Origin: Bacteroidota bacterium
Lineage (GTDB): Bacteria; Bacteroidota; Bacteroidia; Palsa-948
DNA: 37,179 bases
NCBI GenBank assembly: GCA_004297845.1
Contig: SCSP01000011.1
Location: 1 to 37,179 of the forward strand
Reading direction: 5' to 3'
A model generated the notes under the pieces. The model was given only the letters and a program-made list of their open reading frames with translations. It was not told the DNA's origin and made no database searches. How positions within the stretch are numbered: the stretch's first letter is position 1; the number at the start of each line of letters is the position of its first letter. A program made the translations under genes and the position numbers. This document shows, piece after piece, positions 1,177 to 29,515 of the stretch.

Positions 1177-3472
1177 ACCTGTGAACCCACTAAATGAAAT
1201 TTTATTCGTTAGTTCTTTTCCACCGAGGGAATGTGGAATAGCGACATATACGCAAGACCTGATGCAAGCCATCGGACAAAAATTCGGAAAATCATTTTCA
1301 TTAAAAGTTTGCGCACTGGAAAACAGTACGCAAAAAAGAGGGTACGGTGAAAAAGTGAAATATATTCTTAACACTTCCAGTCATTCACAGTACATTGATG
1401 TTTCGGAAAAAATTAACCGCGATAAAAATATTAAAGCAGTTTTCGTTCAGCATGAGTTCGGATTGTTTTCGGGAGAATATGGAGAGAATCTTCTCTCTTT
1501 TCTTTACACACTTCACAAACCCATTATTACTTCGTTTCATACAGTTCTTCCGAATCCCGACAGCAAAAGAAGAGATGTTGTAAAAGCAATTGTTACTGCA
1601 TCGGATTCAATAATTGTGATGACAGAGAATTCAAAAAGAATTTTGGAGAATGAATATTTTGTTCCTGCAGAAAAAATTTCTGTCATTCATCACGGCACTC
1701 ATCTTGTCGCATGTCCTGAAAGAAATACGATTAAAATACGATTCAATCTTTCCGGAAAACATGTCCTATCCACTTTCGGACTTTTGAGTTCGGGCAAGTG
1801 CATTGAAACCGCACTTGATGCGCTTCCTTCCGTTATTGCAAAATTTCCAAACACCGTTTATATGGTTATCGGTAAAACGCATCCTGAAGTCGTGAAGCAT
1901 GAGGGAGAAAAGTACCGTGAGTTTCTTGAAACAAAAGTTTGTGAACTTGGAATCCGGAAGCATGTAAAATTTGTGAACAGGTATTTATCATTAGAAGATT
2001 TACTGGAATATCTTCAACTTACAGACGTATATCTTTTCACTTCCAAAGACCCAAACCAGGCAGTTAGCGGTACCTTTTCATACGCAATGGGCTGTTCCTG
2101 CCCTGTTATTTCCACACCAATTCCTCATGCAAAAGAAATGCTAAGCGATAATGCAGGAATCATTGTTGATTTTCAAAACCCGAAACAACTTGCGGATGCA
2201 GCAATTGAACTGCTTTCAAACCCTAAAAAGAGGAGAGAGATGAGTTTGAACGCGCTTCATAAAATTCGTCCCACAGCTTGGCAGAACTCTGCTGTTGCTC
2301 ATGTTGAGTTATTCAAGAAGATTATGAAAACGGAACAACCAATAAAATATTCCATTCCCGAAATTTCGCTCAATCATATTAAAAAAATGACGACCGAATC
2401 CGGCATCATTCAGTTTTCCGATATATGCCGACCCGATTTGAATTCGGGCTACACGCTTGACGATAACGCGCGCGCATTGATTGCAACTATAAAACATTAT
2501 GAACTTACGGGAGAGCCGGCCGATGTCATGCTGATAGATGTTTATCTCAACTTCATCAAATTTGCTCAGCAGAATGACGGGAGTTTCCTCAACTATGTTG
2601 ACAAGTACGGAAATTACCATGAAAAAAATAAATATGTCAATCTTGAGGATTCGATGGGAAGAGCAATATGGGCGCTAGGAGAATTTATTTCGAGGGGACA
2701 TTTGCTTCACGGCTATTTTTCAAACCGCGCTGAGGGCGTGATGAAAGAATCATTAACTGTTATTCGGCAATTTGAATCGCCACGCGCAATTGCTTTTGTT
2801 ATAAAAGGTCTTTACTCATACAATTTAAAAAATAAAAATCCTTTCATTACAAATTTAATTTCAGAATTGGCAGATAAACTTACTTCTTGCTATCATAAAT
2901 CATCTGACAGCAGTTGGAAATGGTTTGAAGAATATCTTACTTATGCAAATAGTGTTCTGCCAGAATCTTTACTCTGCGCTTACCTTGCAACAGAAAACGA
3001 ACTTTACAAACAAATCGCAAAACTATCTTTCGACTTTTTGCTTGCAATCACCTTTGTTGACAAGAAAATCAAAGTGATTTCCAACCGGGGTTGGCACAAA
3101 AAAGGAGAAGCGAAGAATCATTTCGGTGAACAACCGATTGATGTGGCATATACCATTTCATCTCTTGATTTATTTTATGAAGTGTTTGGAGATGAGGAAT
3201 ACCGAAATAAAATTGAAACGGCTTTCAGCTGGTTTCATGGCAACAATCATCTTCATCAGATTATCTACAATCCTGCAACGGGCGGGTGCCAGGATGGTTT
3301 GGAAGAACATAATGTGAACCTGAATCAGGGTGCGGAATCTGCAGTGTGTTATTTACTTGCAAGAGTAATTATGAAAAAATACATTGAAGTGAAAGATGGT
3401 GTGGAAGAGAAAAAGCTGACATACATACCCATTGCATCAGAATACGGTAAAGAGAAAATTTATATTAAGTGA
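1130..3472 (+). CDS. GT4 glycosyltransferase fused to an alpha/alpha-barrel-like domain
   Basis: A 780-aa two-part protein. Residues ~20-400 form a GT-B glycosyltransferase of family 4: SSFPPRECGIATYTQDL near the N-terminus (nucleotide-sugar glycosyltransferase Rossmann start), FVQHEFGLFSGEYG, SVIHHGTH, and VSGTFSYAMGCSCPVIST in place of the usual E-x7-E loop, a variant known from a GT4 subgroup. Residues ~410-760 are helical with GYTLDDNARALI and EDSMGRAIWALG, resembling six-hairpin or AGE-type toroids. The ATG at 1130 lies 47 bases inside the GH130 gene. An in-frame GTG at 1181, just past the GH130 stop, is an alternative start that keeps the whole GT domain. A glycan-building role next to the GH130 enzyme is inferred; donor and acceptor are unknown. 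Confidence 0.8.
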   Translation: MKLKIPSKESLREKIKPVNPLNEILFVSSFPPRECGIATYTQDLMQAIGQKFGKSFSLKVCALENSTQKRGYGEKVKYILNTSSHSQYIDVSEKINRDKNIKAVFVQHEFGLFSGEYGENLLSFLYTLHKPIITSFHTVLPNPDSKRRDVVKAIVTASDSIIVMTENSKRILENEYFVPAEKISVIHHGTHLVACPERNTIKIRFNLSGKHVLSTFGLLSSGKCIETALDALPSVIAKFPNTVYMVIGKTHPEVVKHEGEKYREFLETKVCELGIRKHVKFVNRYLSLEDLLEYLQLTDVYLFTSKDPNQAVSGTFSYAMGCSCPVISTPIPHAKEMLSDNAGIIVDFQNPKQLADAAIELLSNPKKRREMSLNALHKIRPTAWQNSAVAHVELFKKIMKTEQPIKYSIPEISLNHIKKMTTESGIIQFSDICRPDLNSGYTLDDNARALIATIKHYELTGEPADVMLIDVYLNFIKFAQQNDGSFLNYVDKYGNYHEKNKYVNLEDSMGRAIWALGEFISRGHLLHGYFSNRAEGVMKESLTVIRQFESPRAIAFVIKGLYSYNLKNKNPFITNLISELADKLTSCYHKSSDSSWKWFEEYLTYANSVLPESLLCAYLATENELYKQIAKLSFDFLLAITFVDKKIKVISNRGWHKKGEAKNHFGEQPIDVAYTISSLDLFYEVFGDEEYRNKIETAFSWFHGNNHLHQIIYNPATGGCQDGLEEHNVNLNQGAESAVCYLLARVIMKKYIEVKDGVEEKKLTYIPIASEYGKEKIYIK

Positions 3473-13430: not shown

Positions 13431-14105
13431 TCAATCACCTTTTTGATTTCCTTTAGCGTGTTTCAGCACTTTTGCTTCCACATAAAAAATAATTTCTTCG
13501 GCTATATTTTTACATTGGTCACCAACGCGCTCGAGTTTCCGGATGGTGGAGAGTATGTATAACCCCTGCTCCAAGTTGTCGGGATTCTTTCTGATATAAT
13601 CTGCTACTACCGAATTTGCCTTGATATTAATTTCATCCAGCATTTCATCGCGCTGGAAAATTCTTCGTGCGAGTTTTGTGTCCTCATTTGTAAATGAGGT
13701 CAGCACATCCTGAAGTATGTCGGTTGCTTCTTCAAACATTACAAGCGTTTCGGTTTGTGATAATAATTTTTCATCAAACGAATGATTGGCGTTGACAATA
13801 AATTTTGCAATACCTTCTGCAATATCACCTGTGCGTTCGAGGTTGTTATTTGTTTTGAGAACTGAAAGAACAAAACGCAAATCAACGGCAACAGGGTTGA
13901 AGAGCGCGAATATATTTTCGCAGTCGCGGTCGATTTTCAATTCAAAGCCGTTCACCCGTTTTTCATTGGCGATTACTTCCCGCGCCAGATCCTTGTCAAA
14001 TGTAACGATGGCTTCCTGCGTTTTTTTCAATTGCTGTATAATGAGATTCCACATATTGGTAATCTCTGATTTCAGTTGTTTGAGTTCTTCGTCTAAGTGT
14101 GTCAT
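13431..14105 (-). CDS. phoU: Phosphate signalling protein PhoU
   Basis: A 224-aa all-helical cytoplasmic protein that links the PstSCAB transporter to the PhoR/PhoB two-component system and dampens it when phosphate is plentiful. Seen: two PhoU repeats, each with the expected metal-binding helix pattern. The first contains ANEKRVNGFELKIDRDCENI; the second contains RRIFQRDEMLDEINIKANSV and ends with the helix RKLERVGDQCKNIAEEIIFY. Length is typical (about 220-240 aa). It is the last gene of the pst operon, 51 bases after pstB, and ends 14 bases from the convergent prs gene. Confidence 0.92.
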   Translation of the reverse strand: MTHLDEELKQLKSEITNMWNLIIQQLKKTQEAIVTFDKDLAREVIANEKRVNGFELKIDRDCENIFALFNPVAVDLRFVLSVLKTNNNLERTGDIAEGIAKFIVNANHSFDEKLLSQTETLVMFEEATDILQDVLTSFTNEDTKLARRIFQRDEMLDEINIKANSVVADYIRKNPDNLEQGLYILSTIRKLERVGDQCKNIAEEIIFYVEAKVLKHAKGNQKGD

Positions 14106-14156: not shown

Positions 14157-14906
14157 TTATCCGAATCTTCCTGTAATATAATTTTGTGTTCTCGGGTTTT
14201 TGGGGTTGGTGAAAATTATTTTTGTGTCATCGTATTCAATCAGTTCTCCGAGATAGAAAAAACCTGTTTTATCGCTTACGCGCCCTGCCTGTTGCATGTT
14301 GTGTGTTACAATTATTATGGTGTAATTCTTTTTCAGTTCGTAAATCAGTTCTTCAATTTTAGCAGTGGAAATAGGGTCAAGCGCGGAAGCGGGTTCGTCC
14401 ATGAGAATTATTGAAGGTTCAATAGCCAATGCACGGGCAATACATAATCTTTGCTGTTGTCCACCTGAGAGTTCAAAAGCCGATTTCTTCATTTTATCTT
14501 TTACTTCATCCCACAAAGCGGATTGATGAAGCGAACGCTCCACTCTTTCTTCAATGAATTTTTTATCATTTATTCCATTTACACGCAAACCATAGGCAAC
14601 ATTTTCAAAAATAGATTTCGGAAACGGATTTGGTTTCTGAAAAACCATCCCGACATTTTTCCGCAAATCATCAATGTTTGTTTTCCTGTCGTAAATTTCT
14701 TGTCCGTCAATAAAAATATCTCCTGTAATTTTTACTCCGTCAATCAAATCATTCATTCGGTTAAATACTCGGAGAAAAGTAGATTTTCCACAGCCCGAAG
14801 GACCAATAAGGGCGGTTACTGTGTTTGCAGAAATTTCCATCGTGATTCCTTTCAGCGCATGAAAATCACTGTAATATAAATTTACCTGATGTGTTCTTAT
14901 CTTCAT
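14157..14906 (-). CDS. pstB: Phosphate ABC transporter ATP-binding protein PstB
   Basis: A 249-aa cytoplasmic ATPase that drives phosphate import through PstC and PstA. Seen: Walker [10 protein letters not shown] at residues 35-43, a PstB-typical [16 protein letters not shown] stretch, Q-loop [20 protein letters not shown] signature [16 protein letters not shown], Walker [14 protein letters not shown] and switch His in [11 protein letters not shown]. The length is standard. It follows pstA after a single base and is followed 51 bases later by phoU. Confidence 0.96.
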
Positions 14907-14907
14907 A

Positions 14908-15786
14908 TTAATTCATTTTAACTTTATTTCCGAAATATCTTCTTAACCCGTTGGCTAGTAAATTCACAATGAGAACAATCGCAATCAATACAAGCGCAGT
15001 GCCGTAAGCAATCGGGCGTGATTCTTCTATGTTTGTTCCGCTCGTTGAAATCACATAGAGGTGATAGGGCAAAGCCATCACCTGGTCGAAAATACTTGTG
15101 GGAAGTTTTGGCAGAAAATAAGCTGCGACCGTAAAAAGAATTGGCGCGGTTTCGCCTGAAACTCTGCCGATGGAAAGAATTAATCCTGTAATAATATTCG
15201 GAAGCGACATTGGCAATACAACTCTGCGTATTGTTTGAAGTTTTGTTGCGCCCAGCGCGTAACTTCCAAGACGGAAAGAATGGTCAACTGCTTTTAATGC
15301 TTCTTCGGTTGTGCGAATGACAACGGGAAGCGTGAGCAAGCCGAGTGTTAAACTTCCTGCGAGAATAGAATCACCGAAGCCGAGGGTATTTACAAACAAA
15401 CTCATTCCGAAAAGCCCGAAAACTATTGAAGGAATTCCCGCAAGATTGTTTGTCATAAGTTTTACGAAGCGTTTGAAGAATCCATCCTTTGCGTATTCAT
15501 TAATATATATTGCTGAAAGAACTCCAATTGGGAAAGCGAAGAGCATACTACCCGCTATTAAATAAAAAGTGCCGATAATAGCAGGATAAATTCCGCCTTT
15601 GGTCATTCCATCTTCTGGCATGGCGGTAAGAAATTCCCATGAGATTGCCCGGAATCCTTTTATAGTAATAAATGATAGGATAATTATGAGAATTGCCACA
15701 ACTGAAAAGCTGAGAATGCGAAAAAGATTAAATGCAATTGCTTGCTTTAACATTTTATTGGAACTTATTTTTTCCCCTTCTGCCAT
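14908..15786 (-). CDS. pstA: Phosphate ABC transporter permease PstA
   Basis: A 292-aa inner-membrane permease with six predicted helices. The first is [19 protein letters not shown]. The cytoplasmic coupling loop is visible in [20 protein letters not shown] with [14 protein letters not shown], the EAA-type motif that contacts Pst[16 protein letters not shown] and [19 protein letters not shown] are typical PstA stretches. It starts directly after the pstC stop with no gap and is followed by pstB after one base, so the three transporter genes are translationally linked. Confidence 0.95.
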
Positions 15787-16995
15787 TTACTGTTTGTTGT
15801 ATTTTCTTTTTTTAGAAATATATTCTACTAAAAGATTTGTTGCCATTGTGAGGATGAATAATATGCAACCAAGCGCGAACAATGCTTCGTAATGCAAACC
15901 ACCCTGAGGCGCTTCGCCCAGCTCAGCAGCGATAGTAGCGGGAATTGTGCGAACGGGTTCTAAGATTGTATGCGGAATTACAGCCGCGTTTCCTGTTACC
16001 ATCAGCACTGCCATTGTTTCTCCGATAGCGCGACCGATTCCGAGAATTGCGGCTGCGGTAATTCCTGACATGGAGTAGGGAATGATTACACGCGCGATTG
16101 TTTGCCATTTGTTTGCTCCAAGAGCCAAACTTGCTTCTTTCATTGCGCGGGGAGTAGTTCGGATTGCGTCTTCAGAAATGGTAATGATGGTCGGCAAAGC
16201 CATAATTCCTAAAACAATACTCCCTGCCAAACCTGTTTCGCCAACCGGCAAGTCAAAAACTTTTTGAATAAGCGGAACAATTACGATTAATCCGAAGAAA
16301 CCATAAACCACAGAAGGGATTCCCGCGAGAAGTTCAATGAGTGGTTTTAAAATTCTGCGAACTTTTTCGCTTGCAATTTCTGCCATATAAATTGCGGTTG
16401 CCAAACCAAGCGGAAGCGCGATCAGTATCGCCATCAAACTAACCCATAGTGTTCCGAGTATCAACGGGAGAACTCCTAATTGAGAAGCGGGTTGTGCGGT
16501 CGGAAACCATTCTTTGCCCGAAAGAAATTTTCCAACGGATATTTTGTCCATCGGAAGTTTTCTTCCTGCAAAGTGTTTATCTATATATTTTTCTGGGATG
16601 AATGCGATAATTCCTGTAAGACTATCCACCAAAGAAGAAATACACTTGGGAACATACTGAAGCGAATCTCCCAACTGCTCATCGGTAAAATAATTGCTGA
16701 TGTCGTCAATGCGGAAAAGAATTATTGAATCGTTGTTCCCTCCGAGCGTTTTCCAGTTGGTGATGTTCTGGTCAAATATATTTTTCATGTCTAAAGAAGA
16801 AATTTCTTTCACTGAATTATTTTTGTTCAGCGCAATGGCAAATCCTTCTTCTATGGGAGTTTTATTGAAAACACCCATTCCTTCCCTGAATAAAAAAACG
16901 ACAATGAGCAGAACAGTTAATGTTGTAACCGAACTGCTCAAAAAGAAAATTCCTTCAATGAACTTCTCTATGAAGCGTCTGAAAAACCTTTTCAT
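15787..16995 (-). CDS. pstC: Phosphate ABC transporter permease PstC with PstS-like insert
   Basis: A 402-aa inner-membrane permease, about 80-100 residues longer than E. coli PstC (319 aa). Residues ~18-37 form the first helix. Residues ~50-165 are an extracytoplasmic insert that resembles part of PstS: EGFAIALNKNNSVKEISSLD followed by NIFDQNITNWKTLGG, which matches the PstS pattern IFTGKITNWKDVGG encoded three genes upstream, and later LTGIIAFIPEKYI like the PstS AIGYIGLAYME. The permease core follows with GLATAIYMAEIAS, AGIPSVVYGFFGLIVIVP, an EAA loop (SLALGANKWQTIARVIIP) and GRAIGETMAVLMVTGN. The insert may help receive phosphate from PstS or act as a tethered partial binding lobe; both are inferences. 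Confidence 0.9.
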   Translation of the reverse strand: MKRFFRRFIEKFIEGIFFLSSSVTTLTVLLIVVFLFREGMGVFNKTPIEEGFAIALNKNNSVKEISSLDMKNIFDQNITNWKTLGGNNDSIILFRIDDISNYFTDEQLGDSLQYVPKCISSLVDSLTGIIAFIPEKYIDKHFAGRKLPMDKISVGKFLSGKEWFPTAQPASQLGVLPLILGTLWVSLMAILIALPLGLATAIYMAEIASEKVRRILKPLIELLAGIPSVVYGFFGLIVIVPLIQKVFDLPVGETGLAGSIVLGIMALPTIITISEDAIRTTPRAMKEASLALGANKWQTIARVIIPYSMSGITAAAILGIGRAIGETMAVLMVTGNAAVIPHTILEPVRTIPATIAAELGEAPQGGLHYEALFALGCILFILTMATNLLVEYISKKRKYNKQ

Positions 16996-17000
16996 ATTTT

Positions 17001-17383
17001 TTAATCGTCCATTTCTTCGTGTATCATTTCTTTTAGCATACCTGAGATCATATTTATTTTTATCGGCTTATTTAGATATTGAGTTCCCCCGGATTGATGC
17101 GCTGACATTGCGAGATACTCATCACTATCCGCAGTGAGGAAAAGAACAGGCACATCTTTCAGCATTTTTATTTTTCTAATCTGTCTGCACATTTCTATTC
17201 CGTCCATTTCGGGCATTCGTATGTCGGCAATGATTGCGTCAGGCAGAATCTGAATTGCTTTGCTCAGTCCGTCTTTTCCATTTAATGATGTTGCCACTTC
17301 AAATCCTTCCTTTTAAAATTGTATGATAAAAATTCGAGTATATCTTTTTCGTCATCTACAATCAGTATTTTTTTGTTTCTCAT
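17001..17383 (-). pseudogene. Stand-alone receiver domain of a PhoB-like regulator, frameshifted
   Basis: Reading from ATG 17383 the frame gives MRNKKILIVDDEKDILEFLS, the start of a response-regulator receiver domain with its acidic pocket. It then breaks after FKRK near 17305-17316, reaching a stop within about 9 codons. A second frame continues as VATSLNGKDGLSKA, then IIADIRMPEMDG (phospho-acceptor Asp, residue 54 of the corrected protein), VLFLTADSDE and YLNKPIKI, ending at 17001. One added base in the run around 17305-17316 would restore a ~127-aa receiver with all key residues. The gene has no DNA-binding domain of its own. It overlaps the upstream winged-helix gene by an ATGA and lies 5 bases before pstC. 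The break may be a real mutation or a sequence error. Confidence 0.75.
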
Positions 17384-17676
17384 TTAAAATCTTTAACTAG
17401 TATTTCTTCTTCTGTTATTTTATATCCTACACCTGTTATGGTTCGGATGAGTTTGTCTCCTAATTTTTTGCGGATGTTCACTATGTGAACGTCTACTGTT
17501 CTATCATTGGATTTAGATTTTTCGCCCCACACCTTTTCAAATATTCGTTGCCGTGAAAAAACTTTTCCGGGGACTGAGCAGAGGAGACGAAAGAGTTCAA
17601 ACTCCTTGCGGGGAAGCTCAATTTCCTTCCCCGCTATTATCACTACATATTTCTCTCGGTCAATTATTATACTCAT
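17380..17676 (-). CDS. Stand-alone OmpR/PhoB-type winged-helix protein
   Basis: A 98-aa protein that consists only of the DNA-binding domain of a PhoB/OmpR-family regulator: SIIIDREKYVVIIAGKEIEL (the N-terminal beta sheet), PRKEFELFRLLCSVPGKVFS (first helices), EKVWG, DRTVDVHIVNIRKKLGD (recognition helix) and IRTITGVGYKI (wing). A normal PhoB is ~230 aa with the receiver first. Here no receiver precedes it; pstS ends 9 bases upstream. The receiver is a separate gene immediately downstream, starting in the ATGA overlap. It is the obvious candidate to bind the 11-bp repeats before pstS and the porin. Being uncoupled from a receiver, it may bind constitutively or depend on contact with the receiver protein. 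Confidence 0.85.
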   Translation of the reverse strand: MSIIIDREKYVVIIAGKEIELPRKEFELFRLLCSVPGKVFSRQRIFEKVWGEKSKSNDRTVDVHIVNIRKKLGDKLIRTITGVGYKITEEEILVKDFK

Positions 17677-17685
17677 ACTTCAATA

Positions 17686-18522
17686 TCATTTGCTGAGTGG
17701 CACATAGCCCACTTCTCCAACTATTTTTTGTCCATCAGCAGATAAAATAAAATCAATAAGCGGTTTTACTTTTGCTGCGTCTTTTGTGAGATAGTAGTAA
17801 TACAGAGGACGGGTAATAGGATATGTTTTTGATTGTGCGTTTGGAACGGTTGCTTCTACATAGGTTTTTCCTTTGTCATACGAAACTTTTACGTCCTTCA
17901 CGGTTTTTTCCATATAGGCAAGACCGATGTAACCGATTGCCCCTTTAGTTTGGCTTATACTTTGAACGATTGCGCCAGTCGCTGGCATATTGAGAACAGT
18001 AGAGCCATAATTTTTATTATTCAAAACATGTTCTTTGAAAAATTCGTAAGTGCCTGAACTGGATTCGCGCGAGTAAGCAATTATTTTTTCATCATCACCG
18101 CCCACATCTTTCCAGTTGGTGATTTTTCCTGTGAAGATTCCTTCCAGTTGTTCGCGGGTAAGTTGCGATACTTTATTATTGGGATTTACAATTATGGAAA
18201 GAGCGTCATTGGCGATAACAACTTCTTTGTATGCTTTTCCTGCGTCCTGCAATTTCATCTTTTCGCTCATTTTTATTTTGCGTGATGACATTGCAATGTC
18301 GGTTGTACCATCAAGGAAAGCAGCAATCCCAACTCCGCTTCCTCCACCAATGACGGTGATTTTTGCCATTGGATTTTTTTTCATGAACACTTCGGCTTCT
18401 TTCTGCGAGAGCGGAAGAACAGTATCGCTTCCTTTAATTTTGATGTTGATGTCTCCGAGTTTGAATGCGACTGCTGAAATAATTATTGTTCCGAACAGCG
18501 CGATTGTTTTTATCTTTTTCAT
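17686..18522 (-). CDS. pstS: Periplasmic phosphate-binding protein PstS
   Basis: A 278-aa phosphate-binding protein that delivers phosphate to PstC/PstA. A signal peptide (MKKIKTIALFGTIIISAVAF) is followed by IKGSDTVLPLSQ (first phosphate loop), VIGGGSGVGIAAFLDG, MSSRKI, IFTGKITNWKDVGG, and SRESSSGTYEFF (second phosphate loop). An in-frame ATG at 18552 would add ten residues before the signal peptide. I chose 18522 because it gives a clean signal peptide and because the predicted -7 element at 18543-18550 places the transcript start near 18537, downstream of 18552. It heads the operon pstS, winged helix, receiver, pstC, pstA, pstB, phoU, and has its own Pho-type promoter separate from the porin gene. 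Confidence 0.93.
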   Translation of the reverse strand: MKKIKTIALFGTIIISAVAFKLGDINIKIKGSDTVLPLSQKEAEVFMKKNPMAKITVIGGGSGVGIAAFLDGTTDIAMSSRKIKMSEKMKLQDAGKAYKEVVIANDALSIIVNPNNKVSQLTREQLEGIFTGKITNWKDVGGDDEKIIAYSRESSSGTYEFFKEHVLNNKNYGSTVLNMPATGAIVQSISQTKGAIGYIGLAYMEKTVKDVKVSYDKGKTYVEATVPNAQSKTYPITRPLYYYYLTKDAAKVKPLIDFILSADGQKIVGEVGYVPLSK

Positions 18523-18542
18523 ATTGTTTGTTTTTATCGTTA

Positions 18543-18609
18543 CAAATTTCATGTTATTGTATGTTTTGAATGTTAACCAAACATGAAGGTTTGATTAAGA
18601 GATTGTTAA
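18543..18609 (-). promoter_or_regulatory. Pho-type promoter of pstS: four hexamers at 11-bp period
   Basis: On the minus strand, reading toward pstS, hexamers TTAACA (18604-18609), TTAATC (18593-18598), TTCATG (18582-18587) and TTAACA (18571-18576) start exactly 11 bp apart. The nearest hexamer is followed 20 bases later by GAAATTTG (18550-18543), matching five of six fixed positions of the Bacteroidota -7 element TAnnTTTG. Direct repeats at an 11-bp period are the known layout of PhoB/PhoP boxes. The same layout and spacing occur before the porin gene. Confidence 0.75.
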
Positions 18610-18613
18610 GTTT

Positions 18614-19930
18614 TTAGAATTTATACTGCATTCTAAGGGTGAAAACATTATCTGTGAGGTCTTTCCCCCATAGAGCGATGTTTTTAGTGGTTTCGTTTGT
18701 TACCATGTCATAATAGGCGGTGAACTTCACATTTGTGTCCCAACGGTAAACCCAGCCAATTCCAATTGTTGTATACTTCAGGTCTGTTGTGCCTGTTTTT
18801 GCAAATGTTTTTCCCGAAGGGGCTGTAACTGTTTTACCAATGTTATCGCCTTCCACATCCGTATTAGGATCATACCAGTCGTACTTCAAAACCAATTGGT
18901 GTTTTGTGTGGGCGATGTTTTGTAAAAAGTAGAAATATGCTCCGTTGAAGTTCCTTATATATGTATCAGAAGTAGGTTGTGTTTCGGGACTTTTGCTTGT
19001 AGAAGAAGTTCCGGGCTGTTGCCCCTGAATATATTCTGCGCGAAGTGAAGTAATTCCTGCAACCCAATCAATACTTATCTGTGCGTCTGCACCTATGTAT
19101 TGTCGTTTTGCAATCGCACCATAATTAAGTGTGTCCTTATCTCTTTCAAATGCGTTCAGCCCGAGTGAATCGCTTGCGATGGTATATACCTTGCTTGTGT
19201 TTTGCCTCCATCCACCATTATAATAGGAAGCGCGGATGCCCCAATTAATATTTTCTTTCTTGTTTGTTTTATTAATCCCGATGTTACCTATGAAATCTTT
19301 CTGATAATCAAAGTCAACTGCTTTCGGTCCTGATCCGTTGAATATTCCACCTTCTATTTTTAGAAAATTCCATTTAGAAGTTTTTGGCGGTTGAAAAGTC
19401 AGTTTCGCTCCTACTTCTCTTTCATCAGGAAAAATTGTCTGAAACAATCTTGAACGCTCTGGTGTTTCGCGCATACTTGATGAATAAGAAATTTCAAAAC
19501 CGAACGGGCGGTCAAACACTCCCGCCTGCAAACTCAGTGCTTTTGTCCAAGGGTCGGTTATTTTTACATAAGCGTCTTTTATTCCGACACCTTTTTCAGT
19601 AACATCAACCTGAATGGTATATAAGGCAAGCGCATTGTCGTAAGCGATTTTGAATCTTCCCCTTCGAACTGAAAACCTTTTATCTGCATTGGCTGGGAAA
19701 TCGCCTCCTGCAAATGATTTTATTCCATTTGAATCTGCTACCTGAAATTGCGCTTGCAGGTATCCTGAGATTTTTATTTTCTTCAGCAAATCCAAATCAT
19801 TTTTCAATTTGAGAATACTTACCGCCTGTGTGTCTAAAGGATTGACAGGTGCTTCCTGTGCATTTGCGCTGTTGTTCAGCCATAAGGAAGCAACTGCACT
19901 TATTGCTCCGAGTAAAATTGTTTTTTTCAT
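18614..19930 (-). CDS. Outer-membrane phosphate-selective porin (OprO/OprP family)
   Basis: A 438-aa outer-membrane beta barrel. A signal peptide (MKKTILLGAISAVASLWLNN, cleavage before QEAPVN) is followed by a short coiled segment and then strands typical of phosphate-selective porins: ISGYLQAQFQVADSNG, FSVRRGRFKIAYDN, GVFDRPFGFEISYSSSMRET with PERSRLFQ, and EREVGAKLTF. The protein ends in phenylalanine (RMQYKF), the usual barrel signal for BAM. Length fits the family. It lies 61 bases upstream of pstS on the same strand with its own Pho-type promoter, so outer-membrane and inner-membrane phosphate uptake would be induced together. Confidence 0.88.
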   Translation of the reverse strand: MKKTILLGAISAVASLWLNNSANAQEAPVNPLDTQAVSILKLKNDLDLLKKIKISGYLQAQFQVADSNGIKSFAGGDFPANADKRFSVRRGRFKIAYDNALALYTIQVDVTEKGVGIKDAYVKITDPWTKALSLQAGVFDRPFGFEISYSSSMRETPERSRLFQTIFPDEREVGAKLTFQPPKTSKWNFLKIEGGIFNGSGPKAVDFDYQKDFIGNIGINKTNKKENINWGIRASYYNGGWRQNTSKVYTIASDSLGLNAFERDKDTLNYGAIAKRQYIGADAQISIDWVAGITSLRAEYIQGQQPGTSSTSKSPETQPTSDTYIRNFNGAYFYFLQNIAHTKHQLVLKYDWYDPNTDVEGDNIGKTVTAPSGKTFAKTGTTDLKYTTIGIGWVYRWDTNVKFTAYYDMVTNETTKNIALWGKDLTDNVFTLRMQYKF

Positions 19931-19956
19931 AATCTTTATTTAGTTTTTATTTGACG

Positions 19957-20023
19957 CAAAGAAATAGGTATGGCATTAATCGAATGTTACGCGTACATTA
20001 AATGTTCTTTAATGAGTTGTTAA
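19957..20023 (-). promoter_or_regulatory. Pho-type promoter of the porin gene: four hexamers at 11-bp period
   Basis: On the minus strand, reading toward the porin, hexamers TTAACA (20018-20023), TTAAAG (20007-20012), TTAATG (19996-20001) and GTAACA (19985-19990) start exactly 11 bp apart. TTTCTTTG follows at 19964-19957, matching five of six fixed positions of the -7 motif TAnnTTTG. The gap between the last hexamer and this element is 20 bases, identical to that at pstS. The implied leader to the ATG at 19930 is about 20 bases. Confidence 0.75.
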
Positions 20024-20121
20024 GTTTTGTTAGGAATTATTTAACAGGGCTTGGATTATGAAGGAAGAATTCTTAGTTTTTTGCCCTCTATAAATCAGAT
20101 ATCTTGGAGATAAACAAATCC

Positions 20122-20186
20122 TGACAATAATCATATCAGGTTCTGATTTCAGTCATGCTTTCGTTTTTATTACTGCCACATCTTTA
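20122..20186 (+). promoter_or_regulatory. Tandem CRP/FNR-type operator before the 145-aa/DUF2267/USP/CDF operon
   Basis: Two 12-bp sites fit TGAY-N4-RTCA: TGACAATAATCA at 20122-20133 and TGATTTCAGTCA at 20144-20155, starts 22 bp apart. CATCTTTA at 20179-20186, 35 bases after the start of the second site, is a weak match to TAnnTTTG (four of six fixed bases). The predicted leader is long, about 85-90 bases. Of the four such promoters here this has the weakest individual sites, and it is accepted because of the exact 22-bp spacing. Confidence 0.6.
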
Positions 20187-20278
20187 CCCCATAATTCACA
20201 ATCATGCAGTTGACAATTATTCAAACACAAACCCCGTGGAATCAAAATCAATATTCAAGGGGGTAAACCGCTTTTAAT

Positions 20279-20737: not shown

Positions 20738-21220
20738 ATGCCACTCGATTTTGAAAAACAAGCGCAAAAAGGAAATAAATTCTTAAAGGATGTTGCCGAA
20801 GAACTGGGCAACAAAGCCGATACTTCGAATGCAGGGCGTATGCTTCAGGCGGTACTTCATACTCTGAGGAATCACCTCCCTTTTGAAGAAAACCTTAAAC
20901 TTCTTTCACAATTGCCAATCGCACTGAAAGGGGTTTATGTTCATGAATGGTCGCCTGAAAAAAAACGCGATATAAGTCGAAAAAGAAATGACTTTATTGA
21001 AGAAGTCTTGCGCTATGCCGATGGAACCTGTCTTCATGGATTTTCCGATATCCAGAAAGGCACCGAAGCGGTTCATGCGGTATTCAAAACACTAAAACAG
21101 TATATTTCCCCGGGAGAATTCAATAAAATGGAAGCCGTGCTTCCGGATCAGTTAAAAAAACTTGTTCGGGAAAGCATTTATTCGAAAACTTTAACATTAA
21201 ATCTTGCAAGCAAAAAATGA
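20738..21220 (+). CDS. DUF2267 domain protein
   Basis: A 160-aa soluble helical protein matching the DUF2267 pattern: an N-terminal FEKQAQKGNKFLKDVAEELG with a following GRMLQAVLHTLRNHLPFEEN, then LSQLPIALKGVYVHEW, and a second half-repeat with AVFKTLKQYISPGEFNKMEA and VLPDQLKKLV. The two halves repeat the same HTLR.hl...e / LP..lk pattern, as usual for this domain. Function is unknown. DUF2267 proteins recur beside universal stress proteins in many bacteria. It begins 21 bases after the 145-aa gene and overlaps the USP gene downstream by 4 bases (ATGA). Confidence 0.8.
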   Translation: MPLDFEKQAQKGNKFLKDVAEELGNKADTSNAGRMLQAVLHTLRNHLPFEENLKLLSQLPIALKGVYVHEWSPEKKRDISRKRNDFIEEVLRYADGTCLHGFSDIQKGTEAVHAVFKTLKQYISPGEFNKMEAVLPDQLKKLVRESIYSKTLTLNLASKK

Positions 21221-22071
21221 GAACTATCCTTGTCCCCACCGATTTTTCAAAAAACGCAAAAAATGCGCTTGATTACGCTGCATCCGTAGCTAAAAAGGAA
21301 AACTCCAAATTGATCCTCTTGCATGCATTTCATATTTTTTATCCTTCTTCGGAAATTCCGGTTGCAATGGTTGTTGAAGAAGTATCCGGAACTCAAAAAA
21401 AAGCGGAAGAAGAATTAAATAAACTGTGTCTGGAAATAAAGAAAAATAAAAAATTGAAGTGTGATTTTATATGCAGAGAAGGGTTAGCAGTGGATATATT
21501 ACTGGAAGTATCCAGGAAAATCCGGCCTGATCTTATTATTATGGGCACAAAAGGAGCGAGCGGTATCCGGGAGGTTATATTAGGAAGCAATACCGCCAAG
21601 GTGATCGAGAAAGCAATTTGCCCCGTAATCGCAGTGCCTGCAGGCGCATCTTTTAAAGGGATACGGAATATCGTATTTTCAACCGACTACCACGAAAGCG
21701 ATGTGAATGCTCTGAAAAAAACAACAGGTATTGCCAAGATATTCGGGAGCCGGATAAACATACTGCATGCCTCCGACCGGGAATTTACGCAGGAAGTGGA
21801 AGAAGGATTGATGCGGCAATTTATGAAAACCGTATCAAAAAAAATAAAGTATAGCAAAATATCGTCCTTAGTAAAATATGGCGAACTGCCGGAAAATATT
21901 CTCCAGGACTACATTAAGAAGAAAAAACCCGATTTGATAGCCATGTCCACACAACGCAGGAGTTTGCTTGAAAAACTTTTCGGAACAAGTATCACCAAAA
22001 AGATGGCTTATCATACAAACGTGCCCCTGCTTGCCTTTCATCATAAACACGAATCAGTTGTTTTTATTTAA
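21217..22071 (+). CDS. Universal stress protein, tandem UspA domains
   Basis: A 284-aa cytoplasmic protein with two Usp domains. The N-terminal domain begins MRTILVPTDFSKNAKNALDY and carries the ATP-binding pattern G-2x-G-9x-G(S/T) in MGTKGASGIREVILGSNTAK, ending CPVIAVP. The C-terminal domain starts at about residue 145 (RNIVFSTDYHESDVNALKKT) and lacks the glycine loop, having MSTQRRSLLEKLFGTSITKK instead. One half therefore probably binds ATP and the other is degenerate. It overlaps the DUF2267 gene by 4 bases and precedes a second USP by 8 bases. Such proteins usually help survival in starvation or low oxygen; the partner is unknown. Confidence 0.92.
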   Translation: MRTILVPTDFSKNAKNALDYAASVAKKENSKLILLHAFHIFYPSSEIPVAMVVEEVSGTQKKAEEELNKLCLEIKKNKKLKCDFICREGLAVDILLEVSRKIRPDLIIMGTKGASGIREVILGSNTAKVIEKAICPVIAVPAGASFKGIRNIVFSTDYHESDVNALKKTTGIAKIFGSRINILHASDREFTQEVEEGLMRQFMKTVSKKIKYSKISSLVKYGELPENILQDYIKKKKPDLIAMSTQRRSLLEKLFGTSITKKMAYHTNVPLLAFHHKHESVVFI

Positions 22072-22079
22072 CACCGCGC

Positions 22080-23006
22080 ATGAATACAAAATATAAAATA
22101 CTGCTTGCAACAGATTATTCTGAAGCGGTAATGAACGCTGAACGTTATGCCGTTCAGTTTGCCAAAGCCACCAATTCCATATTGGTATTCCTTCATATAT
22201 ATGACACGCCTTTGCCGCCTCCCAAGATAACCATGAGCTATAAAGATATGCTGGTGAATACAAAAGCGTTTGAAATAGAAAAGCTGGAAAATCATCGGGA
22301 AAAATTGTTTCAGACCCTGAATATAAAACCGGGAGGAATAGCCGGAGAGTGCATTGTGCGCGAAGGGCTTGCAGGAAAGCAGATCAGAAAAGAAGCAAAG
22401 GAGACAGATGCGGATTTTATTATTGTCGGAACACATGGAGCTACAGGATTTCGCGAAGTGTTTTTCGGAAGCCATTCATGGGATGTGATAAAAAAATCCA
22501 GTGTGCCTGTGATCGCTGTCCCGAAAGAGGCGCTTTTCACAGGATTCAAAAATATCGTATTTGGAACGGAATACAGAGAGGGGGAGATACCTGTTCTGAA
22601 TTTTCTCACAAAGTTCGCAAAGCATTTTGACGCGGAAGTAACGGTGCTGCATTCCACTAACTATGTTCTTTCCAAGCATTTTGAAAAAGATATGTTTGAG
22701 CGGTTTCGGAATGATATTAAAGGGAAGGTAGTGTATGATAAGATAAAAATCGAGCTCATCAAAAGCGGAAATGTAGTCGATGGATTGAACAGATTCTGCG
22801 AGCGTACGAAAGCAGATCTGCTGGTAATGTCACCTCAACAGCCTTATCTTCTTGAAAAAATCTTTACTCCTGATCCGAGTATGACAAAAAAAATGAGTTT
22901 TCATGCAACTACCCCTCTGATGACAATTCCGGATTTCTATAATCCTGAATACATTGATTTCTGGAAACATTTTGCCCAGGGCGATTATGTGAATGAAGAT
23001 TTCTGA
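22080..23006 (+). CDS. Universal stress protein, tandem UspA domains
   Basis: A 308-aa paralogue of the preceding gene. The first domain starts YKILLATDYSEAVMNAERYA and keeps the nucleotide-binding loop VGTHGATGFREVFFGSHSWD. The second starts near residue 155 (KNIVFGTEYREGEIPVLNFL) and has MSPQQPYLLEKIFTPDPSMT in place of the glycine loop. A C-terminal tail (NPEYIDFWKHFAQGDYVNED) extends past the fold and is not found in its neighbours. It is 8 bases after the first USP and 17 bases before the CDF gene, clearly one operon. Confidence 0.9.
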   Translation: MNTKYKILLATDYSEAVMNAERYAVQFAKATNSILVFLHIYDTPLPPPKITMSYKDMLVNTKAFEIEKLENHREKLFQTLNIKPGGIAGECIVREGLAGKQIRKEAKETDADFIIVGTHGATGFREVFFGSHSWDVIKKSSVPVIAVPKEALFTGFKNIVFGTEYREGEIPVLNFLTKFAKHFDAEVTVLHSTNYVLSKHFEKDMFERFRNDIKGKVVYDKIKIELIKSGNVVDGLNRFCERTKADLLVMSPQQPYLLEKIFTPDPSMTKKMSFHATTPLMTIPDFYNPEYIDFWKHFAQGDYVNEDF

Positions 23007-24462: not shown

Positions 24463-25389
24463 TTATACGGATGGTATCTGGTATAAAAGATCTGAATCAT
24501 ATTTCCGAATATTCTTCCCCTGCACCTTCCACCCTGAAGTTGCAGGTAATCTATGAAAATTTACAGTGAACACAGGAAGGGATGCATGGCTCACCACATC
24601 CTCAGCAATGCTTCCCTGAAAAAGATGCGACAGCCCGTTTTTGCCGTGTGTGCCTAGTGCGATCATATCCGCACCCAGAGCACCGGCACTTCGCCTGATG
24701 CCTTCCTCTTTTGAATCAGCGTAATATATGCTTGTGGAAAATTCGAATGCTTTGTTTCTGCCTCTGAATTTCTCAATCAGCTTTTCTGTTTGAGAGGATG
24801 TTTCAAAATTATTCAGCGTAATTATTTTTGCAAGAACCAACTTTGCCTTTAACAACTTTGCAATATGGCTGACAGCAGGCAGAATTTCCTCCGTTTCCTT
24901 CGAAAAATCGGCAGCAAACAGGATGGTGTCCAACTTCGGATTTTTCATGGCATGTTTCACGGAAAGAACCGGGATTCCCGCATTACGTACAATTTTCTCT
25001 GCATTGGTACCTATGAATTTCTCCTGCAACCCGTTCCTGCCATGGGTACCCATTACAATCATATCTATCTTATATTTTTGGGCGGCTTTAAGGATCATCT
25101 CAGGCACAGAACCCAGTTCAATTATTTCCTCCACATCCGCGCCTTTAAAAGTTTTACCATTTCGTATCTTACCCATTCTTGCTTTTGTCAATTGCATCAT
25201 TTCCATCATGAAATGGGTATCCATCCGCGTTTCTTTGTTACCGTTCGCACTCAGCGAAGGAGAGGGAATATCCAATACATGCAGCAAGTAGATGGTTGCA
25301 TCTGATTTTTCTGCCAGCAAGGCAGCATAACTATATGCCGCAGCAGAACAGTCTGAAAAATCCGTAGGAACTAAAATTGATTTGCTCAT
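24463..25389 (-). CDS. Universal stress protein, tandem UspA domains, both with ATP loops
   Basis: A 308-aa cytoplasmic protein with two Usp domains. Unlike the two rightward paralogues, both halves keep the nucleotide-binding loop: MGTHGRNGLQEKFIGTNAEK in the first and LGTHGKNGLSHLFQGSIAED in the second. It starts MSKSILVPTDFSDCSAAAYS and ends with a short tail after VFTVNFHRLP. It follows the 66-aa membrane protein by 20 bases and precedes the TerB-like gene by 21 bases, all under the divergent tandem operator at 25664-25697. Confidence 0.92.
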   Translation of the reverse strand: MSKSILVPTDFSDCSAAAYSYAALLAEKSDATIYLLHVLDIPSPSLSANGNKETRMDTHFMMEMMQLTKARMGKIRNGKTFKGADVEEIIELGSVPEMILKAAQKYKIDMIVMGTHGRNGLQEKFIGTNAEKIVRNAGIPVLSVKHAMKNPKLDTILFAADFSKETEEILPAVSHIAKLLKAKLVLAKIITLNNFETSSQTEKLIEKFRGRNKAFEFSTSIYYADSKEEGIRRSAGALGADMIALGTHGKNGLSHLFQGSIAEDVVSHASLPVFTVNFHRLPATSGWKVQGKNIRKYDSDLLYQIPSV

Positions 25390-25749: not shown

Positions 25750-27003
25750 ATGAGTACCTTCGAGGTTAGCCAATCACAGGCAAAAAAAATGGACAGTAAA
25801 GAAGGTCTGGAAGCGCTCTTTGAGTTCGCCACGGAAGGTATATTGGTCACCAATCATACCGGAACGATTATAAAAACCAACCCCGCCACTGAACGAATGT
25901 TCGGTTATGGAAAAAACGAGTTGATTGGAAAAAAAGTAGAAGTTCTTGTTCCTGCCAGACATTCACATTCCCACGTAGCTCATCGTGATAAATACAACGG
26001 AAGTCCTCATGCCCGATCTATGGGAGCAGCTATGGACCTGTATGCAAAACGGCAGGATGGAAGCGAATTTCCGGTAGAGATAAGTTTAAGCCCATTCACT
26101 GCTTCAGACGGGCAATTCGTCATTGCATTTATCATTGACATTACGATACGCAAAAAAGCTGAAGAATCCGTTATACAACAGAAAAAAGAACTGGAACTGC
26201 TGAATACAGATCTGGAAAAACGAGTGAAAGAGCGCACCATGATACTGGAGGAAGCCATTTCGGAATTAAACCAGACAAAGGAAGAGCTGAATGATGCCCT
26301 GCAAAAAGAAAAAGAATTGAACGATCTCAAATCACGCTTTGTGTCCATGGCATCGCATGAATTCCGAACACCGCTTGCCACCATCCTTTCTTCGCTTTCA
26401 CTGGCTACTAAATATTCCGAAAAGGGCGACAAAGAAAACCAGGCTAAACACATAAACAGGATCAAGACTTCCATTGGAAACCTGACGGACATACTGAACG
26501 ATTTTCTCTCCATCAGCAAGTTTGAAGAAGGCAAGATATCCGCTTCTCCTGAAAAATTAAATATCAAGGAATTTGTATCAGAATTACTTAAAGAGGTTCA
26601 ATCCATAGTTAAGACCGGACAGAACCTTGATTACACCCATAGCGGATATGCAGAGACGGTTTCGGATAAAAAATTTCTGAGGCATATTTTATTGAACCTT
26701 CTTTCCAACGCCATTAAATTTTCTCCGGAAGGAAAGTCTATTGTGTTAAAGACCGAAGTAAACAAGTCGCATTTCATTTTTTCCGTGAAAGACAGCGGCA
26801 TCGGGATCTCGGAAGAGGACCAGAAGCACTTGTTCGAACGTTTTTTCAGGGCGCATAACGCTACCAACATACAAGGAACAGGGCTGGGATTGAATATTGT
26901 ATCCAAGTATGTGGAAATGCTGGATGGAACCATTGATTTTAAGAGCGCTCTTGCAAAAGGAACAACATTTACTATTCATCTGCCAACAGGAAATGGAAAC
27001 TGA
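25750..27003 (+). CDS. PAS-domain sensor histidine kinase (FixL-like architecture)
   Basis: A 417-aa kinase without membrane helices, so cytoplasmic. Residues ~18-135 are a PAS domain (ATEGILVTNHTGTIIKTNPA, then GYGKNELIGKKVEVLVPARH). Residues ~140-195 are a coiled coil. The HisKA domain has MASHEFRTPLATILSSLS with phospho-acceptor His203. The ATPase domain has LLNLLSNAIKFSPEG, KDSGIGISEED and GTGLGLNIVSKYVEM. The PAS segment HSHSHVAHRDKY puts a His where FixL has its haem ligand, but related non-haem PAS domains share this residue and the distal Arg position is Met here. Oxygen, redox or another small signal could be sensed. Its partner is almost certainly the response regulator 79 bases downstream. 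Confidence 0.9.
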   Translation: MSTFEVSQSQAKKMDSKEGLEALFEFATEGILVTNHTGTIIKTNPATERMFGYGKNELIGKKVEVLVPARHSHSHVAHRDKYNGSPHARSMGAAMDLYAKRQDGSEFPVEISLSPFTASDGQFVIAFIIDITIRKKAEESVIQQKKELELLNTDLEKRVKERTMILEEAISELNQTKEELNDALQKEKELNDLKSRFVSMASHEFRTPLATILSSLSLATKYSEKGDKENQAKHINRIKTSIGNLTDILNDFLSISKFEEGKISASPEKLNIKEFVSELLKEVQSIVKTGQNLDYTHSGYAETVSDKKFLRHILLNLLSNAIKFSPEGKSIVLKTEVNKSHFIFSVKDSGIGISEEDQKHLFERFFRAHNATNIQGTGLGLNIVSKYVEMLDGTIDFKSALAKGTTFTIHLPTGNGN

Positions 27004-27082: not shown

Positions 27083-28147
27083 ATGAGCAAATCAATTCTT
27101 CTTATTGAGGACAACAAAGATATGCGCGAAAACACTTCCGAGATTCTGGAGTTGGCGCATTACAAGGTTCAAACGGCAAAAAACGGAAAAGAAGGAGTTG
27201 ACCTTGCCCAAAAGAGCAAGCCGGACCTTATCATCTGCGACATCATGATGCCGTTGCTTGATGGCTATGGCGTGCTTCACATGCTTTCAAAAAATAATGA
27301 AACCGCAGGCATTCCGTTCATCTTCCTCACTGCCAAAGCAGAGCGCAGCGATCTGCGAAAAGGAATGGAGATGGGCGCTGATGATTATTTGACCAAACCT
27401 TTTGACGACATTGAGCTGCTGAACGCGGTGGAAAGCCGGTTAAAAAAGTCGGACATGATGAAAAAGGAATTCTCCAAAAACATGGAAGGACTCAACGAGT
27501 TCATCACCAGCGCGAAAGGCATTGAAGACCTGAAAAAACTTTCACATGAACGCGATGTAAGGATATTTAAGAAAAAAGAAAATATTTATTCAGAGGATGG
27601 GTACCCGCGGGGAGTTTATTTTGTGGTGAAAGGAAAGGTGAAGACTTATAAAACACACGAACAGGGAAAAGAATTCATTACCGGACTTTTTAAAGAAGGG
27701 GATTTTTTCGGATACCTCGCTCTACTGGAAGAAGAGGGAAAATACACTGATTCCGCAATGACATTGGAGGATTCAGAAGTTTGTCTGATTCCCAAGGATG
27801 ATTTCTTTTCATTGGTATATAAAAATGCGGAGGTATCGCGCAAGTTCATCAAGATGCTTTCAGATAATCTGCAGGAAAAAGAAGACCATCTTATTAAGTT
27901 GGCATATAACTCGGTCAGAAAGCGTGTTGCCGAAGCGTTGGTTACGCTAAGCAACCGCTATAAAAAAGACGGGGAGCAGCAGTTCAGCATGAATATTTCG
28001 CGCGAGGATCTTGCCAATCTGGCCGGCACCGCCACCGAAACCACCATACGCACACTCAGCGATTTTAAAGAAGACGGGCTTGTTGACATCAAGGGGGGCA
28101 CCATTGCTGTAATGAATTACGACAAGCTTGCCCGAATGAAGAACTAG
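27083..28147 (+). CDS. Response regulator with CRP/FNR-type output domain
   Basis: A 354-aa transcription factor. Residues 1-125 are a receiver domain (ILLIEDNKDMREN, phospho-acceptor Asp53 in CDIMMPLLDG, FLTAKAER, TKPFDD). Residues ~150-270 are a cNMP-binding-fold beta roll. Residues ~275-354 are a CRP/FNR winged helix (SREDLANLAGTATETTIRTL). The cAMP pocket is not conserved: the Glu of CRP GELGLF is Tyr (GYLALL) and the Arg-Ser pair is lost, so phosphorylation is probably the switch, not cAMP. There is no Cys cluster for Fe-S. The recognition helix keeps Glu and, four residues on, Arg, as in FNR, which fits TGA half-sites. It is the likely binder of the four tandem operators in this cluster. 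Confidence 0.9.
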   Translation: MSKSILLIEDNKDMRENTSEILELAHYKVQTAKNGKEGVDLAQKSKPDLIICDIMMPLLDGYGVLHMLSKNNETAGIPFIFLTAKAERSDLRKGMEMGADDYLTKPFDDIELLNAVESRLKKSDMMKKEFSKNMEGLNEFITSAKGIEDLKKLSHERDVRIFKKKENIYSEDGYPRGVYFVVKGKVKTYKTHEQGKEFITGLFKEGDFFGYLALLEEEGKYTDSAMTLEDSEVCLIPKDDFFSLVYKNAEVSRKFIKMLSDNLQEKEDHLIKLAYNSVRKRVAEALVTLSNRYKKDGEQQFSMNISREDLANLAGTATETTIRTLSDFKEDGLVDIKGGTIAVMNYDKLARMKN

Positions 28148-28241: not shown

Positions 28242-28694
28242 ATGCACACTATTCTACATAACCACGAAATCGCGGGAGCGTTGATTGCCCGGGTATTTTT
28301 AGGGCTGCTGTTTTTTTTTCAGGGCTTTGATGCCGTATTTCGGGTGAAGATAAGCGGGGTACTTCAAACGATAGAAGATCCATTGTCGAGGATTGGATTA
28401 CCCCGGTTCTTTATTGTATCAGGAGCTTACTTTACTTCATACGTTGAATTAATCGGAGGTTTTTTTCTGATCATTGGCTTTGCAAAATATTATGCCATGT
28501 ATCTGTTGGGAATAGATCTGGTGATTGCTTCCATTGCATTCGGAATTGTGAAGCCCATGTGGGATATGCAATATGCTTTCCCGCGCCTTGCACTGCTGAT
28601 ATTCCTGCTGATGATCCCCTCACAGTGGGATGTAATATCCGTTGATTATGTATGGTCGATTATAAAATTCATTAAATCAATAACTCCGCAATGA
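28242..28694 (+). CDS. DoxX-family membrane protein
   Basis: A 150-aa inner-membrane protein of the DoxX family with four predicted helices: ALIARVFLGLLFFFQGFDAV (the family hallmark of helix 1), FTSYVELIGGFFLIIGFAKY, YLLGIDLVIASIAFGIV, and FPRLALLIFLLMIPSQWDVI. DoxX relatives act in quinone or thiosulfate redox chemistry and in stress complexes, but most have no proven role. An upstream in-frame GTG at 28200 would add 14 residues. I prefer ATG 28242 because the predicted promoter element lies at 28218-28225. The stop overlaps the following USP gene by 4 bases (ATGA). Confidence 0.8.
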   Translation: MHTILHNHEIAGALIARVFLGLLFFFQGFDAVFRVKISGVLQTIEDPLSRIGLPRFFIVSGAYFTSYVELIGGFFLIIGFAKYYAMYLLGIDLVIASIAFGIVKPMWDMQYAFPRLALLIFLLMIPSQWDVISVDYVWSIIKFIKSITPQ

Positions 28695-29515
28695 GAACCA
28701 TTCTTGTTCCCACAGATTATTCGGATGTTGCAAACAATGCATTGCAATACGCAGTTGAACTTGCAAAATTCAGCCGCGCGAAATTAGTTTTGATGCACGC
28801 GTATCAGGTGCCTGTTCCCACTGGGGAAGTGCCGGTCATGATGATCTCCCCGCAGGAACTTGAAAAAGAAAATCTGAAGAGGATCGAAAATCTTGAAAAG
28901 AAGTTCGCTGAAAAAACAAAAGGTGAAATCAAGATTGAATCATTGGTTCGTTCGGGGTTTGCCGTTGAAGAGATCATAGATGTAATTAAAGAAAAGAAAG
29001 CGGACCTGGTGGTGATGGGGGTTACAGGCGCTGGAAAAGTAAGTGAAGCGCTGATCGGCAGCCATACTTTCTCACTGATGAAGCAAACACAAATTCCGGT
29101 ATTAGTTGTTCCCAAAGACGCCCGCTTCAATGAAGTAAAAAAAATAGTTCTTGCTTATAATTATAATGAGGCGGTAAGTAAAACAGCAATTGATAAAATC
29201 AAAGGATTTGCCCGGCTTTTTAGTGCAAAAATTTTAGTGCTGGATGTAGAAAAACCCGTTGCAGTTCCCATGTACGAAAATATGGAGGCAGGCGAATCAT
29301 TAGAAAGATCATTAAAGGGTGTTGAGCATGTCCTGTTTTTTTCATCGTCAGAGGATATTGCGGATGGGATAAACACATTTGCCGATGACCATAAGTGCGA
29401 CTGGGTGGCAATGATTCCTCACAAGCATAACCTCCTTGATAAGTTGTTTCACAGGAGCAATACAAAAAAAATGGCATTTCATACCCATATTCCTTTACTA
29501 TCCATTCACGACTAA
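28691..29515 (+). CDS. Universal stress protein, tandem UspA domains
   Basis: A 274-aa cytoplasmic protein with two Usp domains. It starts MRTILVPTDYSDVANNALQY. The first domain keeps a nucleotide-binding loop in altered form, MGVTGAGKVSEALIGSHTFS, with Val in place of the usual Thr/His. The second domain, from about residue 145 (KKIVLAYNYNEAVSKTAIDK), has a non-glycine segment (MIPHKHNLLDKLFHRSNTKK) like the two rightward paralogues. It overlaps the DoxX gene by 4 bases and precedes a 135-aa gene by 11 bases. Confidence 0.9.
   Translation: MRTILVPTDYSDVANNALQYAVELAKFSRAKLVLMHAYQVPVPTGEVPVMMISPQELEKENLKRIENLEKKFAEKTKGEIKIESLVRSGFAVEEIIDVIKEKKADLVVMGVTGAGKVSEALIGSHTFSLMKQTQIPVLVVPKDARFNEVKKIVLAYNYNEAVSKTAIDKIKGFARLFSAKILVLDVEKPVAVPMYENMEAGESLERSLKGVEHVLFFSSSEDIADGINTFADDHKCDWVAMIPHKHNLLDKLFHRSNTKKMAFHTHIPLLSIHD

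Follow-up and report, generated by a model that had tools for sequence, protein, structure and literature searches.

A PhoB-type winged helix without a receiver in a Bacteroidota pst operon, possibly a reduced form of a regulator pair found in related genomes

In regulators of the OmpR/PhoB design a receiver and a DNA-binding domain are coupled in one polypeptide chain. Single-domain receivers are known as well, those of the CheY/Spo0F kind consisting of a receiver with a full active site and no output domain. Atypical regulators with dead receivers have also been described, and in aspartate-less or otherwise atypical OmpR/PhoB regulators such as ChxR, RitR and HP1043 the DNA-binding output is uncoupled from receiver phosphorylation (PMC4395418). 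In the Bacteroidota pst operon examined here, a PhoB-type winged helix and a PhoB-type receiver occupy two open reading frames (ORFs), the winged helix first, where full-length PhoB is one polypeptide with the receiver first. The winged helix is of the same family as the PhoB DNA-binding domain, keeps its DNA-backbone contacts and is linked to pst, but it has no receiver, carries Val and Asn in place of R200 and R201 and has lost V190 (its relatives have lost G185 too), and PhoB itself is encoded elsewhere. The receivers of this group consist, like CheY and Spo0F, of a receiver only with its active site complete; unlike these they resemble PhoB in sequence and are often encoded close to phoB or pst, and the frame of the one found here is broken. 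Decayed acidic pockets, which recall ChxR, RitR and HP1043, occur in regulators of related genomes; the differences are that the DNA-binding protein described here lacks a receiver altogether and that in the relatives the decayed regulator is accompanied by a phosphorylatable receiver encoded separately. What is new is that at pst the two functions reside in separate, linked genes. Searches of the open literature, with subscription journals largely outside their scope, found no account of a pst operon with a winged helix on its own or of such a receiver/decayed-receiver pair.

The window, by which we mean the whole stretch of 37,179 nucleotides that was analysed, carries the operon on its minus strand, in the ORF order porin, pstS, winged helix, receiver, pstC, pstA, pstB, phoU. 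The porin gene (18614-19930) holds the same position in relatives. It is followed by pstS (17686-18552), whose product is 47-80% identical to PstS of pst operons in the class, and, 9 nt further on, by the intact gene for the 98-residue winged helix (17380-17676). The stop codon of the latter overlaps the start of the receiver gene (ATG at 17383) in an ATGA (17380-17383), and the receiver's C-terminal ORF (17001-17297) is followed by pstC (15787-16995), pstA (14908-15786; 69-83% identity in relatives), pstB (14157-14906; with ATP-binding cassette motifs in its sequence) and phoU (13431-14105; PhoU-like by eye), the last two placed also by operon position. The first-pass annotation had placed a 98-residue winged helix ahead of a receiver, joined by an ATGA overlap, between pstS and pstC, and the ORFs and sequence agree with it; the two are PhoB-type single domains inside the pst operon, in an order that reverses that of PhoB. 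The region upstream of the operon (19931-20278, minus strand) holds a weak tandem array of four 11-bp TTAACA-like copies (p about 0.07), a candidate Pho box. Arrays with this spacing precede several relatives' pst operons and receiver modules and are stronger in several of them. Elsewhere in the window several genes read by eye like universal stress proteins (21217-23006, 24463-25389, 28691-29515), and near them lie apparent genes for a PAS-type histidine kinase (25750-27003) and a receiver-CRP-like regulator (27083-28147).

The 98-residue protein consists of a whole DNA-binding domain of the OmpR/PhoB type (Pfam Trans_reg_C, 87.9 bits, E 5e-25) and aligns almost end to end with solved domains of that family, including those of E. 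coli PhoB (1gxp, 3t72). R176, W184, R193, T194, V197, H198, R203 and T217 are kept in all 14 paralogous winged helices, that of the window included. Residues of the activation loop are mostly lost from the paralogs. Mutations G185R and V190M abolish activation by E. coli PhoB (PMC3973317); G185 and V190 are each present in 136 of 140 PhoB sequences and in one of the 14 paralogs, and no paralog has both. The window's protein is the one with G185 and has Ser for V190. R201 of PhoB makes a base-specific contact and R219 touches the bases between half-sites (PMC3973317); they are Asn and Thr, respectively, in the window's protein. The change of R200/R201 to Val/Asn in the recognition helix is found only in three lone winged helices, Arg-Lys being present in 132 of the 154 sequences. 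Since the DNA contacts are kept, G185 and V190 are mostly lost and Val/Asn replaces R200/R201, the lone winged helices should, to judge from these residues, bind tandem half-sites, perhaps with an altered preference, without making the usual transcription-activating contact. The loss of activation is less sure for the window's protein than for its relatives because G185 is kept.

The other two lone winged helices, of about 100-103 residues, 67-68% identical to the window's and lacking both G185 and V190, are encoded between pstS and pstC in G329 and G412, two species of another family than the window's. In both genomes the end of the gene overlaps or abuts pstC, no receiver adjoins it and PhoB is encoded elsewhere; no stand-alone receiver of the window receiver's family was detected in either genome. 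Between these two genes dN is 0.08 with dS saturated, and they are under protein-level constraint. G329 came from the pst operons of the class and G412 from a family scan. Relatives of the window's pstC, with identity of at most 76%, occur in 66 of 395 class genomes, and in almost all the class operons read there is nothing recognisable between pstS and pstC, the exceptions being G329 and, through the family scan, G412. No further lone winged helix appeared in a scan of 396 genomes of the phylum (E 1e-27) or of 265 genomes of the class, and a scan of named genomes found no close relative, its matches being ordinary regulators or contig-edge fragments. The position of the lone winged helix recurs in G329 and G412; the split order, whose conservation in related genomes the first-pass annotation had proposed to check, does not recur in any of them. 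It is absent from the other genomes of the window's genus, which is variable for pst, and from every other genome sampled. An ordinary gene encoding receiver and winged helix in one chain was not found here in close relatives either: they carry no recognisable gene, a winged helix on its own, or the pair described below. In G329 pstS is separated from the gene for the lone winged helix by a strong terminator-like hairpin (L079, about 3015-3065, minus strand, z -8.5), and a similar inverted repeat is seen in G412; the corresponding place in the window has no such hairpin.

The second gene is not the intact receiver half that had been described. Three-frame translation gives MRNKKILIVDDEKDILEFLSYNFK in one frame, from the start codon, and then runs out of frame to a stop (17282-17383), while KEGFEVATSLNG lies in the next frame; the frame changes by a single-base offset in an A-run at about 17311-17314, a site that full-length relatives cross in one frame. 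The annotated ORF of 98 codons (GTG at 17297 to 17001) is only the C-terminal part, lacking the first strand and the acidic pocket, and covers positions 30-107 of the Response_reg model (E 4e-17); the phospho-Asp, Thr and Lys are present in it. On a read-through of both frames all the active-site residues are there. A programmed -1 frameshift is unlikely: no slippery site lies in register, and slippage would end translation because the -1 frame stops directly, at TTT TAA.

The offset of one base in an A-run, in a genome of 412 contigs, is what a draft-genome error might look like, and the gene order could perhaps be wrong as well. We consider such an artefact quite improbable as an account of the locus. 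It would explain the frameshift only, the surrounding pst genes are intact, and G329 and G412 independently confirm a winged-helix gene on its own between pstS and pstC. The broken frame may also be read as real decay of a regulator module, in which a frameshift would have disabled the receiver as a first step and the winged helix would no longer matter. This fits the absence of the window's arrangement from all other sampled genomes and the piecemeal losses from the related modules of G001 and G087 (below). We nevertheless think it unlikely, since the winged-helix ORF is intact with its DNA-contact residues conserved, and the orthologues in another family are under constraint at the same place in the operon.

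The idea that PhoB itself had been split into two genes did not survive. A PhoB winged helix with an adjoining PhoR-like kinase lies at the start of contig C231 and a PhoB receiver, the N-terminal part, at the start of contig C4. Of the intact phoB and phoR that the first-pass annotation had proposed to look for elsewhere, phoB is present as fragments at contig edges, with phoR beside one of them. Both fragments cluster with the PhoB of the genus in trees, and they probably represent a single phoB gene cut by contig ends; other OmpR-type regulators are also encoded in the genome. The window's receiver belongs with other proteins. It is nearest to the stand-alone receivers of G195 (53%) and G049 (52%) and falls within the clade of stand-alone receivers with support of 100/100 and 98/99 in two trees. 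In a leave-one-out profile test it scored +32.7 bits in favour of the stand-alone profile (+31.6 for the C-terminal part alone, with no read-through), in the range of the stand-alone receivers (+21 to +55), PhoB receivers scoring -44 or below. An approximately unbiased (AU) test did not reject its placement with PhoB receivers (p 0.25). Tree support and profiles together favour its membership of a separate stand-alone receiver family. Because the receiver comes from a different group and PhoB is present elsewhere, we reject a PhoB broken in two by local rearrangement.

In related genomes stand-alone receivers of this kind form a tandem pair with the gene that follows, which encodes a PhoB-like protein with a decayed receiver. 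The two genes are adjacent in seven genomes of one family (G195, G247, G294, G782, G375, G783 and G137) and in G003, which belongs to the window's genus. Directly after the pair, G003 and G247 have porin, pstS and pstC, and G195 and G137 have a second pstS (L296, 10193-11089; L316, 13919-14833); in G782 about 5 kb separate it from porin-pstS-pstC downstream. Variants also occur. In G001 the second gene has lost its own receiver domain, a similar gene with a truncated receiver is found in G087, and in G049 the decayed-receiver gene precedes the porin-pst genes while the receiver adjoins phoB. Both acidic residues, the phospho-Asp, the Thr or Ser and the Lys are present in 21 of 21 full-length stand-alone receivers, as against none of 11 decayed receivers. 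A profile trained on eight stand-alone receivers places genes of this kind ahead of PhoB in about 17 of 385 genomes of the class, and several of the receivers found with it adjoin phoB or pst. Two further observations concern these modules. The stand-alone receiver of G219 and G781 has after it a second, decayed receiver without a winged helix (L257, 931-1374; L315, 9418-9819), the mirror image of the window's loss. In G001 and G003 a conserved gene of 76 codons (MFE.LR..METDA.VKFKNGKSLYGIIIDFI...) precedes the receiver gene (L056, 2369-2599; L057, 2017-2247), with a Pho-box-like array upstream.

Compared with the pair, the window has the genes in reversed order and lacks the decayed receiver, and it looks like a reduced and reordered form of the pst-linked pair. 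The suggestion that it was left over from a tandem pair of regulators thus came close: the relatives do have a receiver gene followed by a regulator gene, but that second gene is PhoB-like with a decayed receiver, and the window's winged helix has none. Phylogeny leaves two origins in play. The winged helices of the window, G329 and G412 form one clade (support 99/94), and a grouping of the window's with the winged helices of the pair rather than with PhoB has tree support of 96/90 or 94/90. Profile scores of the lone winged helices lie between those of PhoB and of the decayed-receiver paralogs (-0.7 to -3.6 bits), and an AU test did not reject a PhoB origin (p 0.62); they may descend from PhoB or from the decayed-receiver paralogs. 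Simple orthology with the pair of G001/G003 finds no support, the identity being 47-48% and the subclades separate.

The pair also raises the prospect of a working regulator in two pieces, in which the stand-alone receiver would take its phosphate from PhoR or some other kinase and then bind and switch, in trans, a separate winged helix or the decayed receiver attached to it. The two genes lie side by side in eight or more genomes, often linked to pst; the stand-alone receiver has a complete active site and its DNA-binding partner has lost its own; and every sampled class genome with the paralog also has the receiver, although part of the paralogs came to light as neighbours of receivers, so this is not an independent survey. 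For the locus at hand we hold such an arrangement to be possible but on the doubtful side, since the window's receiver frame is broken, its winged helix has neither a receiver nor a linker as a docking site, and in G329 and G412 the winged helix persists although no receiver of this kind was detected. The trans action that the first-pass annotation had suggested as one possibility for the window may occur in the relatives, and the evidence from the window, G329 and G412 speaks against it there.

Our preferred reading, to which we give a probability of roughly 0.45, is that the window encodes a receiver-less PhoB-type regulator within the pst operon, acting as a phosphorylation-independent feedback set by dose and representing a reduced form of the relatives' pair. 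By its place in the operon the lone winged helix would be made together with the phosphate transporter and would follow phosphate starvation. It would bind PhoB-type tandem half-sites without phosphorylation, its amount setting its activity. Most likely it would compete with PhoB at the pst promoter or dampen it, a built-in negative feedback; competition is likely because activation-loop residues are lost while DNA contacts are kept. The most economical model would be a phosphorylation-independent brake on pst whose production keeps pace with expression of the operon.

A broader proposal, which we put forward tentatively and with more doubt, is that Bacteroidota phosphate operons may use a two-protein response regulator, with the phosphorylatable switch and the DNA-binding output (a PhoB paralog whose receiver is decayed or missing) as separate polypeptides, beside PhoB as a dedicated brake on the pst promoter or a retuner of it. 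For annotation, the name PhoB should be avoided for a winged-helix gene that stands alone in a pst operon. The recurrent, pst-linked separation into two genes gives a natural setting in which to ask if an output domain can be switched in trans by a receiver. With its DNA-binding protein lacking activation residues of PhoB, it may equally serve to study how the phosphate-starvation response could be restrained independently of phosphorylation.
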